Source: Pseudorhodoferax sp. Leaf267 (GTDB taxonomy: Bacteria > Pseudomonadota > Gammaproteobacteria > Burkholderiales > Burkholderiaceae_C). From it: 64,000 nucleotides of DNA. Positions within the stretch are counted from its first letter, which is position 1, and every line of letters begins with the position of its first letter. The position numbers and the translations under genes are program-made. Positions 2,351 through 6,537 of this stretch are shown here, one piece after another. The stretch lies in contig NZ_LMMV01000023.1 in the NCBI RefSeq assembly GCF_001422405.1, forward strand, positions 125,156 to 189,155. Reading direction: 5' to 3'. The notes under the pieces are model-generated. The model ran no database searches and had not been told where the DNA came from. It worked only from the letters and a program-made list of their open reading frames with translations.

Positions 2351-3973
2351 TTATGCGCGCCGTGATCCATGCGCAGCCGGCGCGGGCTGCGGCAGCCGGA
2401 ACACGGCCAGCTCGTCGGGCGCGCATTGCGCGATGAGCCCGGTCTCCCAGGCCAGGTAGCGGCGCGCGGCCTCCAGGTTGCCGTCGTGCCGGTCGTGCAC
2501 GAACAGCAGGTAGTCGATGGCGTCCGCATCGGCAGGCGTGTCGGGCGAGGCGGCGACGGGCAGGCCGGCCGCGACCCAGTCGGCGGCCAGTGCCCAGTGC
2601 ACGTCATGCCAGCCGGCTTCGGCCAGCTCCGCCACGGCGAGGCGGGCGATGCCGGCATCGGATGCCAGTAGCAGTACCGTGTTGTCTGTCGAGCCTGCGG
2701 CGTGTGCGTCGGCCGGCAGCCGCGAGCGGATGGTCCAGCGCGCGCCCTGCGCGTGCTGGCGGCGGTGGGCGCGCGAGTCCTGCAGGTCCAGCAACAGGGG
2801 CTGGCGTGCGGCGACCCAGGCGGGCAGGGCTTGCGTATCGATCCGCGCGGGCGTGGCGTCATGGAGCAGGTTGGCGGCCGGCACGCGCAGCGACGCGCGG
2901 ATGCCGCCTTCGACCACCGCCGTCTCATAGCCCAGCCGCGCCAGCCAGGCCGCGACCACGGGCGCACGCACGGCCTCGCCGTCCAGCAGCAGCACACGGC
3001 CGTTGCGCACGCCGATGGTCTGGTCCGTGGCCTGCAGCAGCTGGCCGCCCGGCGCATGGCGCGCGCCGGCCAGCGTGCCGGCCGCGAACTCTTCGTCGCT
3101 GCGCACGTCCAGCACATGCACGGTGCGCGCCGCATCGTCGAGCCAGGCCTGGGCCTGGGCCGCATCGAGCCGCTGCACGTCGGCCTCGTCCGCCAGCCGT
3201 GCGGCCGCCGCTTGGTCCTGCGCGCAGGCCTGGGGCGCGCTGTGGGCGCGGCGCGTGCTGCCGTGCTCCAACGGCAGCCCGGCCAGCGCCCAGCCCTGCG
3301 TGCCGTTCTCCAGCGCGACCACGGGGTTGGGCACGCCCAGGCTGCGCAGGATCTGCGCGCCGATGATGCTGCGCGTGCGGCCCGCGCAGTGGATGACGAT
3401 GGGCGTGGCCGGGTCGGGCGCCAGCGCATGCCAGCGCAGCGCGAGTTCGCCGTTGGGCACCGAGGTGGCGCCGGGAATGGTCACCTTGCGGTGCTCGGCG
3501 AAGGTGCGGCCGTCCAGCAGCACCAGCGGCTGGCCAGAGGCCTGGCGCGCCTGCAGCTCGGCCGCCGAGATGTGCGGCGTGGCGTAGGCGTGCTCGACGA
3601 GTTCGCCGAAGGTCTTGGAGGGCAGGTTCACGCCCTGGAACAGCGTATAGCCTGCCGCGGCCCAGCCCGGCGCGCCGCCGTCCAGCACGTGCAGGTCCGT
3701 GTAGCCCAGCGCAGCCAGCCGTTGCGCGGCGCGTGCAGCCACGCCGTCACCGGCGTCCAGCAGCACGGTGCGCGTGGCCCGGCGCGGCACGAGGTGTGGC
3801 ACGTCCAACTCCAGCCGGCTGTAGGGCGCAGGGACCGCAAAGAACGGGTGGCCTTCGCCGAACTGGCCGGCTTCGCGCACGTCGAGCAGCGCGATCTCGT
3901 GGCCGTCGTTGAGCCATTGGCGCAGGGTGGTGGCGGGGACGGGTGTGCAGGAGATGGGAGAGGTCTGGGGCAT
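2351..3973 (-). CDS. multidomain rhodanese-like sulfurtransferase (four rhodanese repeats)
   Basis: 540 residues with four consecutive rhodanese-like modules at roughly 14-115, 133-235, 268-368 and 385-480. Rhodaneses move a sulfane sulfur atom through an active-site cysteine persulfide. Only the second module has a normal active-site loop (HCAGRTRS, Cys196). The loops of modules 1, 3 and 4 read LLDAGDG, LLLDGEA and LLLASDA and lack the cysteine, so they are presumably structural or regulatory. No signal peptide is seen, so the protein is probably cytoplasmic. It is the first gene of a minus-strand operon with two solute-binding proteins, suggesting a role in handling an imported sulfur compound. 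Confidence 0.85.
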   Translation of the reverse strand: MPQTSPISCTPVPATTLRQWLNDGHEIALLDVREAGQFGEGHPFFAVPAPYSRLELDVPHLVPRRATRTVLLDAGDGVAARAAQRLAALGYTDLHVLDGGAPGWAAAGYTLFQGVNLPSKTFGELVEHAYATPHISAAELQARQASGQPLVLLDGRTFAEHRKVTIPGATSVPNGELALRWHALAPDPATPIVIHCAGRTRSIIGAQILRSLGVPNPVVALENGTQGWALAGLPLEHGSTRRAHSAPQACAQDQAAAARLADEADVQRLDAAQAQAWLDDAARTVHVLDVRSDEEFAAGTLAGARHAPGGQLLQATDQTIGVRNGRVLLLDGEAVRAPVVAAWLARLGYETAVVEGGIRASLRVPAANLLHDATPARIDTQALPAWVAARQPLLLDLQDSRAHRRQHAQGARWTIRSRLPADAHAAGSTDNTVLLLASDAGIARLAVAELAEAGWHDVHWALAADWVAAGLPVAASPDTPADADAIDYLLFVHDRHDGNLEAARRYLAWETGLIAQCAPDELAVFRLPQPAPAAHGSRRA

Positions 3974-5005: not shown

Positions 5006-5397
5006 GGTGCGTTCCTTGTGCGTGGGATGCTAGGCAGCGCATATGACATCCCCATGTCCATCCTGTCACTCCGCTGTCACCGTTCTGTCGGAACAATGCG
5101 CGCCTGCGTGTCTGTAAGCGGCTCGCAAATCGAGGTGCGGCCACGCTGACCAATTGCCGGGATGCAGCACGCGTTCGGCCCGCACCCGCTGGCGCTGGGC
5201 GCAGGAATGCCGCCGCGCGGGCGTGCCGCTGGGCAGCGCGCCCTGGCCGCGTGCTCCCGCGAATGCGGGATGTGCGCGCGCGCTGCCTCTCACCATACTG
5301 ACGCCAGGCGAGCTGCCGCATGCGCAGGCTGCCAGCACCCCACGCGCCACATGCCGTGGCCGCAGGGGTTCAACCAACGGCCGGTGGGAGGGTTGCG
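5006..5397. other. 392-bp intergenic region between divergent ppk2 and the PEP-CTERM gene
   Basis: No convincing coding sequence. It must hold the promoters of both flanking genes. The only clear structure is the CTGTCAC-type triple repeat near the ppk2 side; the right half is very GC-rich. A good ribosome site (GGGAGG) sits just before the ATG at 5398. Confidence 0.6.
5063..5091 (+). promoter_or_regulatory. candidate PHO box: three 11-bp-spaced CTGTC repeats
   Basis: CTGTCAC (5063-5069), TCCG, CTGTCAC (5074-5080), CGTT, CTGTCGG (5085-5091). Seven-base direct repeats separated by four bases are the layout of PhoB-binding PHO boxes. The repeats read rightward, that is towards the PEP-CTERM gene about 300 bp away and not towards ppk2, whose start is only 58 bp to the left. 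Site function is inferred. Confidence 0.5.
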
Positions 5398-6537
5398 ATG
5401 ATCAGAGCGTGTCGACGTGCCGCTGCAACGGCCTGGGCCTTGTGCTGCGGTCTGCTGCTGGGAGCCCCGTGGCCGCAGGCCCAGGCCGCGCCTGTGGTGC
5501 TGCAACAGGCCACGCACAACGGCACGGGCGACGCGCCGGGCCGCTTCAGCGCGCTGCTGCAGGGCGGCGCAGACGACCAGGCCACGCTGCAGCTGTTCAC
5601 CGCGCCCGGCGCGGGCGGGCGCATCTCGGGCCTGTACGTGCAGGACGCCACGGGCGCGATCGCCCGCGACACCTTGTCGGGCGATCCGCTGGTGCGCCTG
5701 TCCCAGACCCAGGTCCACGAGGTGCTGCTGAACGACGCCGGTGCCAACAAGCTGGCGGTGATCAAGGCCTTGTCCTCCGCGCTGGGCATCGGCCTGACGC
5801 AGGCCAAGCGCCTGGCGGACGCTGCCCCCGTCGTGATCCGCTCGGCCGGCACGCCGGACGGCAATGCGCAACTGCAACGGCAGCTGCAGGACGTGGGCGC
5901 GCGCGTGACGCTGAGCAGCCGGCAGGATCCGTCCGCCCCGGCCGGCGCGAATGTGGGCGTCACCACGCCCGGCGGCACGCCGACCGGCTACGACGTGGTG
6001 CTGGCCCGCGCGGGCACCAACAAGGTCGCCCTCATCAAGCTGGTGCGCGACGCCACGGGGCTGAGCCTGGCCGAAGCCAAGAAGCTGGTGGACGAGGTGC
6101 CGTCCGTGGTCCAGGCCAACGCCAGCCGGGCCGAGGCACTGGCCCTGCGGCAGGCGCTGCAGGACAGCGGCGCCACGGTGGAACTCAAGCCGGTGGGCAC
6201 CGGGGCCGTGGGGCAAGGCCCCATCGTCCTGCCGCCTGGCAGCGCGGGCATCGCACCCGACCTGCAGGTGCGCTTCGCCTACGCGGACCCGCTCGCCATA
6301 CCGGCGCTGCAACTGACGTTCGAACTCGGTGTCGACCTGGCCGATCTGCTGGGTGCATGGCAGTCCGGGCAGTTCCGCTTCGGTGTCGAAGTGACGGACG
6401 CGGCCGGCGTGTCCGATCTCTACCTCGCGCCGCGCGCCGCAGCACCAACCGAGGTGCCCGAGCCGCCGACGGGTGCGCTGATCCTGGGCGCGCTGCTGTG
6501 CCTATGGTGGGGCACGGCGGCGCGGCGCAACCGCTAG
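5398..6537 (+). CDS. exported PEP-CTERM protein with two ribosomal L7/L12 C-terminal-like repeats
   Basis: 379 residues from the ATG at 5398, which has a GGGAGG ribosome site; the frame is open further upstream but the signal peptide starts here. A signal peptide covers residues 1-31. Two copies of a fold resembling the C-terminal domain of ribosomal protein L7/L12 follow at about 106-172 (AGANKLAVIKALSSALG) and 198-264 (AGTNKVALIKLVRDATG), each with the AK-LVD/AD-P helix and a final GA-V-L strand. The C-terminus (353-379) is VPEPPTGA, a hydrophobic run and a basic end, that is a PEP-CTERM sorting signal processed by exosortase. The function is unknown. The stop overlaps that of mgtC in a shared CTAG. 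Confidence 0.8.
   Translation: MIRACRRAAATAWALCCGLLLGAPWPQAQAAPVVLQQATHNGTGDAPGRFSALLQGGADDQATLQLFTAPGAGGRISGLYVQDATGAIARDTLSGDPLVRLSQTQVHEVLLNDAGANKLAVIKALSSALGIGLTQAKRLADAAPVVIRSAGTPDGNAQLQRQLQDVGARVTLSSRQDPSAPAGANVGVTTPGGTPTGYDVVLARAGTNKVALIKLVRDATGLSLAEAKKLVDEVPSVVQANASRAEALALRQALQDSGATVELKPVGTGAVGQGPIVLPPGSAGIAPDLQVRFAYADPLAIPALQLTFELGVDLADLLGAWQSGQFRFGVEVTDAAGVSDLYLAPRAAAPTEVPEPPTGALILGALLCLWWGTAARRNR

Follow-up and report, generated by a model that had tools for sequence, protein, structure and literature searches.

The window, a 64,000-nucleotide stretch of contig NZ_LMMV01000023.1 from Pseudorhodoferax sp. Leaf267, contains an open frame with an ATG at position 5398 and a stop codon at 6535–6537, the 379-residue product of which combines the features of a PEP-CTERM protein with two copies of the C-terminal domain (CTD) of ribosomal protein bL12 (L7/L12) (Table 1). 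The start codon is backed by a conserved GGAGG sequence and by the orthologs. The frame, its coordinates and the two motifs quoted in the original prediction are as described there, and both bL12 domains that it had placed in the protein proved to be complete: PF00542 matches the whole protein with 124.6 bits (E 2e-36, cut-off 25.9) in two stretches, each of which also exceeds the cut-off separately in a scan of the genome. TIGR00855, the NCBIfam equivalog model for bL12, exceeds its own cut-off (106.5 bits against 84.4), as a result of which an automatic pipeline could label the protein 50S ribosomal protein L7/L12. The best stretch of this match spans profile positions 50–125 only, no bL12 N-terminal family (dimerisation/uL10-binding) is listed in the protein at E values up to 1, and the ribosomal rplL is a separate gene at C23:4674 (107.2 bits in the PF00542 scan of the genome). 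The architecture of the protein, in terms of both the identity of the domains and their tandem arrangement, is near certain. A comparison of the two flanks with the remaining 25 PEP-CTERM proteins encoded in the genome using BLAST, phmmer and flank HMMs yielded nothing significant, and VIA-align lists no match for them, a result without bearing in either direction; our impression is that both might belong to a single PEP-CTERM beta-sandwich into which the CTD pair is inserted.

Table 1. Features of the gene and of its upstream region (positions are those of the window)
Feature	Position	Strand	Basis or remark
Palindrome TCCCGCGAATGCGGGATG, probable operator	5255–5272	.	inferred
CATACT, -10-like hexamer	5294–5299	+	21 nt past palindrome in 6/6 orthologs
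GGAGG ribosome-binding sequence	5387–5391	+	upstream alignment, six orthologs
Whole gene, 379 aa (P0001)	5398–6537	+	predicted exported PEP-CTERM protein, two bL12 C-terminal domains
Predicted signal peptide, about residues 1–30 (MIRACRRAA...PQAQA)	5398–5487	+	sequence features alike in 6/6 orthologs
N-terminal flank, residues 31–105	5488–5712	+	low-confidence predicted strands; no family match
CTD1, residues 106–172, bL12 C-terminal domain	5713–5913	+	PF00542 53.4 bits; model; 9k0z match
Linker, residues 173–197	5914–5988	+	low model confidence
CTD2, residues 198–264, bL12 C-terminal domain	5989–6189	+	PF00542 80.5 bits; model; 8yeq and 1ctf matches
C-terminal flank, residues 265–352	6190–6453	+	no family match; low-confidence model
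PEP-CTERM tail, residues 353–379 (VPEPPT, hydrophobic stretch, AARRNR)	6454–6534	+	TIGR02595

An AlphaFold2 model computed from a thin alignment of nine rows reached a mean pLDDT of 51.6 over the whole protein, with values mostly below 50 outside the CTDs and the C-terminal helix. The latter scored about 70, while the ten-residue blocks of CTD1 (111–170) and CTD2 (201–260) ranged from 66 to 86 and from 77 to 87, respectively. In a structure search, CTD2 was matched to 8yeq (Z 14.0, rmsd 0.8, 71 residues) and to 1ctf (Z 13.0, rmsd 0.9, 68 residues, 52% identity, TM(target) 0.93), and CTD1 to 9k0z (Z 9.5, rmsd 2.0, 68 residues). What the model and the search return is not an unrelated fold: the beta-alpha-alpha-beta-alpha-beta fold of the bL12 CTD is predicted for both copies. 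The ClpS adaptors, which display the same superfamily fold at 13–19% identity, came next in the search (Z 8.8–10.3), as expected from the fold in common. ClpS is a cytoplasmic N-degron adaptor, and the shared fold tells nothing about function. The 1ctf structure presumably holds a sulfate or anion site.

At the N-terminus, a basic n-region, a hydrophobic stretch and an AQA-AP-type site are found alike in all six orthologs, as judged by sequence features only. The C-terminal PEP-CTERM tail of the original prediction was recovered by TIGR02595 with 19.8 bits in the whole-genome scan (cut-off 16), although it is borderline, falling slightly below the cut-off (15.3) in hmmscan. When the window protein is counted, there are six orthologs, of which TIGR02595 matches five at E values up to 5 and PF07589 four, the window protein not being among these four; the VPEP tail and the export-type N-terminus are present together in 6/6. 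In all six, the stretch from the end of the predicted signal peptide to the PEP motif is free of cysteine. The 19-residue hydropathy maxima of the window protein are moderate (1.29 at the N-terminus, 1.43 in the tail and 1.21 in the middle), and the middle stretch outscores the tail in two of the six orthologs (Leaf265 and G002). The genome holds 30 PEP-CTERM matches, 26 of them above the cut-off and including the window protein, and, in keeping with the original prediction, it does encode exosortases, namely exosortase A (XrtA; TIGR03109, 349.5 bits, cut-off 208) and exosortase Q (XrtQ; NF012182, 362.2 bits, cut-off 270). From its sequence, the protein is probably exported. The occurrence of XrtA and XrtQ together in one genome (G000:C1:1036928 and G000:C25:15055; L005, L006; L098) is an observation in its own right, as is a further PEP-CTERM tail, at C25:15897, which ends a long open frame adjoining the XrtQ gene.

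Orthologs, origin and constraint

Full-length orthologs are encoded in 6/6 Pseudorhodoferax genomes examined, including that of the window, the other five sharing 59–66% identity with the window protein. One of them, on NZ_LMMT01000037.1 of Pseudorhodoferax sp. Leaf265, was obtained from a contig scan with six short peptides of one protein as queries, which also yielded 12 other CTD matches. The ortholog of G003 (L025, 1501–2829) carries about 60 extra residues beyond the PEP-CTERM tail, past the end of the other five.

Four overlapping samples of 369–399 genomes were searched at the level of the family (399, which holds the six genomes of the genus), order (379), class (369) and phylum (378), and no ortholog outside Pseudorhodoferax is found among the matches listed in them. 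In the family sample, the listed matches outside the genus are confined to the CTD2 region with at most 64.6 bits, and 24 of these (loci L033–L056) were read as rplL; in the class, phylum and order samples, the window's own gene (673.2 and 297.5 bits) is the sole match listed above 78.6 bits. Scoring was limited to the best candidates per genome (often 4, 5 or 9), with strict E-value limits in the class, phylum and order samples, so that the result amounts to the absence of any full-length or tandem relative ranked higher than the bL12 matches, which reach 78.6 bits at most; relatives with a single exported CTD, or strongly diverged ones, could have escaped the samples. Eight plasmid records match, none of which covers more than 80% of the query and three of which are annotated as rplL.

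A tree was computed from 35 CTDs. The 12 CTDs of the six orthologs form one side of a branch with support 99/96, within which the CTD1 copies group at 100/99 and the CTD2 copies at 87/78, while the genus's own rplL clusters away from them with other Burkholderiales rplL (92/92). This tree is unrooted, based on 69 columns and on a chosen subset of rplL rows (L073 and L076 of the seven class loci are absent), and its bootstrap is unsettled, which leaves limited support. Since the exported CTDs stand apart from ribosomal bL12, the simplest history would be one capture and then one internal duplication, both predating the radiation of the genus, with no recent copying from its own rplL; two separate captures are a further possible origin.

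Over residues 31–350, the six orthologs display a mean identity of 0.68 and a pN/pS of 0.56, a rough figure that is uncorrected and derived from GC-rich codons; with pN/pS below 1, purifying constraint on the protein is shown. Both CTDs are kept in 6/6, with mean identities of 0.68 and 0.69 and pN/pS of 0.59 and 0.70 for CTD1 and CTD2, respectively, the latter being the highest value among the parts measured and that of the linker (0.32) the lowest. The exported CTDs evolve at the pace of the remaining protein and are not under stronger constraint; the CTDs of rplL in these genomes are, by eye, nearly identical.

The retention of individual residues is uneven. Of the 13 basic positions of the bL12 consensus, 65, 70 and 84 are basic in 12/12 exported CTDs (K65 itself in 11/12), followed by 107 (9 of 12), 95 (6), 73 (4), 100 (3), 116 and 120 (2 each, the CTD1 rows being gapped at 120) and 108 (1), with 81, 92 and 109 basic in none. 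The chance of the three kept positions lying within the five basic hairpin positions is about 0.035 (10/286), which lends modest support. On the same face, position 66 is V, I or L and position 69 is I in 12/12, and the loss of most copies of R73 (4/12 kept), K81 (0/12) and E82 (5/12) means that the factor-binding face is only partly kept. Mutation of K65 or K70 weakens EF-Tu binding by bL12, according to the available text of PMC10602876, and the retention of 65/70/84 and 66/69 amid wider loss suggests that part of this face is still in use in the exported CTDs. Positions 70 and 84 are, by eye, mostly kept in small half-domain proteins too, so that K70 and K84 could also have been retained for the fold.

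Upstream block and neighbouring genes

The gene is preceded in 6/6 orthologs by a block consisting of TCCCGCGATCGCGGGATG or a variant of it, a spacing of exactly 21 nt, CATACT (with a one-letter variant in two), GGAGG and the ATG. It is seen at window positions 5255–5299 and upstream of the orthologs L008, L022, L024, L025 and L026, at places where the flanking genes differ. The Leaf265 copy located at the fixed spacing retains mainly one half of the palindrome, with a fuller copy just upstream, and the copy in G005 has three mismatches. The palindrome with at most two mismatches is found at 1, 1, 1, 3 and 0 places in G001, G002, G003, G004 and G005, respectively (0 for a reversed control), one place in each of G001–G004 being the promoter of this gene. 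The window genome has six such places, three of which lie before PEP-CTERM genes: this one, C1:1517130 and C25:147079. At a level of at least 14/16, the palindrome precedes 3/26 PEP-CTERM genes, whereas 50 Markov shuffles average 0.06 such genes; as the motif was discovered at this gene, the independent count is 2/25. No excess before PEP-CTERM genes is seen at the looser level of 11/16 (5 against 9.5), and when three mismatches are allowed, the window genome shows no clear surplus of the palindrome over the reversed control (16 against 9). The palindrome appears to be an operator of the gene, common to two other PEP-CTERM genes in the species of the window, and together with CATACT probably constitutes a promoter-like block. 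A terminator was considered and rejected, as by eye no T run follows the palindrome. Matches to a simple GG-N9/10-TGC pattern for a sigma-54 site, of the type given in the available text of PMC1569441, are scattered upstream of the orthologs with no common place.

In the window, the gene lies downstream of PPK2 (TIGR03707, above cut-off) and upstream of an MgtC-like gene (below cut-offs), neither of which is retained as a neighbour among the orthologs; no operon partner was found. A role linked to polyphosphate was dropped because the PPK2 neighbourhood is not conserved. An SDR-type gene adjoins the ortholog in Leaf265, G005 and G001, and a LysR-type gene lies beside it in G005 and G003, both named by eye; the flanks in G002 are ambiguous. 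Elsewhere in the window (2351–3973, minus strand), a 540-residue protein is encoded that by eye appears to consist of several rhodanese-type repeats in tandem.

Possible roles of the tandem domains

On the ribosome, the bL12 CTD catches translation factors. The exported CTDs resemble it in sequence profile, in fold and in the retention of K65, I69, K70 and K84 (each in 11–12 of 12). On the other hand, the protein differs from bL12 in having two CTDs per chain with no N-terminal bL12 domain found, in its export and PEP-CTERM signals, in the loss of most basic positions besides 65, 70 and 84, and in being encoded alongside a separate rplL. With known PEP-CTERM substrates (TIGR02595, PF07589) it shares the signal-like N-terminus, VPEP, the hydrophobic stretch, the basic end and the presence of exosortase A in the genome, but it differs from those of the system's description in its ribosomal-protein domain, the word 'ribosomal' being absent from the main text of that paper (PMC1569441). 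Most PEP-CTERM proteins have a signal peptide, and at the time of the system's description less than 10% had a match in Pfam, according to the available text (Haft et al., 2006; PMC1569441), so that a protein that is probably an exosortase substrate and holds two domains whose fold is known is useful. The original prediction knew of no described role for such a protein; both parts are known, and the combination of PEP-CTERM/exosortase with the L7/L12 C-terminal domain was indeed not found in the open-access literature searched. A review of the extraribosomal roles of bacterial ribosomal proteins mentions another of them, uS2, at the surface of rickettsia, and 12 of the 17 places in it that concern L12, a surface or the extracellular space describe no such use of bL12 (PMC10931766).

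Export, cleavage, location, the acting exosortase and the binding role are proposed here. The scheme of export, cleavage and release follows the published PEP-CTERM sorting model (PMC1569441) and the finding that floc formation in Aquincola tertiaricarbonis involves a PEP-CTERM protein, PepA (PMC9850573), as given in the available text of both papers. The protein would be made with a signal peptide and cross the inner membrane, its C-terminal PEP-CTERM helix would hold it, exosortase A would cut there, and the cleaved product would be passed to the surface or to the exopolysaccharide matrix. In the mature part, the two bL12 CTDs in tandem between the two flanks would act as a bivalent adaptor gripping a partner, either a protein or an anionic polymer, through the same hydrophobic–basic helical face by which bL12 catches translation factors in its ribosomal role. 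We give this reading, that of an exosortase-sorted matrix or surface protein with two bL12 CTDs as binding modules, about an even chance; taken by itself, the assignment of the tandem CTDs as the binding part is also evenly balanced. If true, it would represent an extracellular use of a domain that has otherwise been studied as a recruiter of translation GTPases, in a protein that is present in all genomes examined of the genus and is likely to be mis-called a ribosomal protein, and it would offer a direct means of testing whether a new ligand can be taken on by the bL12 binding face.

The even pace at which the CTDs and the rest of the protein change, and the replacement of much of the bL12 surface, including most lysines of the last helix, would equally suit a captured easy folder, in which the CTDs are inert, stable spacers that hold the flanks or the tail off the membrane and bind no ligand. 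For such a role, the preservation of two copies in 6/6 species and of K65, I69, K70 and K84 in 11–12 of 12 CTDs would be over-specific unless these residues are structural, and we regard it as rather unlikely. A narrower form of the binding hypothesis, which appears somewhat less probable still, is that of a bivalent extracellular receptor, in which tandem CTDs controlled by an operator of their own, near-unique in the genomes of the genus, would bind a specific partner outside the cell through the retained K65/K70/K84 and hydrophobic 66/69 face, in effect forming a 'stalk' within the exopolysaccharide matrix.

The protein might also not be exported at all, but stay in the cytoplasm, tethered to the membrane, and bind ribosomes or factors in the manner of small tail-anchored proteins with the bL12 hairpin. 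Such small proteins do occur in the same order and the hydropathy of both ends is no more than moderate, but the signal-like N-terminus and the VPEP–helix–basic tail, which by their charge place the middle of the protein outside, are kept in 6/6 and exosortase A is present, so that this reading is improbable. EF-Tu may reach the cell surface, and exported CTDs could in principle catch it, or other translation GTPases, at the surface or in the matrix through the old face. The residues retained there (K65, K70, K84 and the hydrophobic positions) include the two that matter for EF-Tu binding in the available text of PMC10602876, but the depletion of R73, K81 and E82 and the want of an evident biological reason make this a very improbable role. 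A recent accidental fusion, an assembly error or a decaying gene, which the restriction to one genus in the samples might bring to mind, is already contradicted by the orthologs, the gene being intact in 6/6 genomes, the five others at 59–66% identity, with a conserved promoter block, and the genome having its own rplL. A surface or matrix protein with two CTDs as binding modules is the reading that we retain.

Other bL12-like proteins in Burkholderiales

A PF00542 search of 399 genomes of the order returned many with more than one match, of which 46 were chosen for re-examination; 12 regions were read, 11 from this list and one from the family sample, and none combines an export signal with whole CTDs. 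These regions comprise eight small hairpin proteins with a C-terminal hydrophobic end, L063, L059, L067 and L068, the last of which is plain rplL. Weak matches in frames of about 300 residues at profile positions 14–43 we take to be EF-Ts.

The eight small proteins (L057, L058, L060, L061, L062, L064, L065 and L066) consist of the bL12 helical hairpin alone, in one copy or two, of the type GxKIEAIKxxRxxTGLGLKEAKxxVE, followed by the hydrophobic end, and by eye they retain most basic residues of the binding face. Like the exported protein, they are non-ribosomal with bL12-like sequence, several are duplicated and positions 70 and 84 are, by eye, mostly kept; they differ from it in being half domains with no apparent signal peptide and no PEP-CTERM tail, and are probably cytoplasmic. 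These proteins may put a factor-binding hairpin at the membrane. L063 is similar to them, with its hydrophobic end at the N-terminus. L067 (G762:C1:261209) is a second rplL-like copy in which the CTD ends after the hairpin in unrelated sequence, a full rplL being encoded elsewhere in the genome, and L059 (G695:C106) joins a zinc ribbon and membrane segments, both assigned by eye, to a single C-terminal bL12-type CTD.
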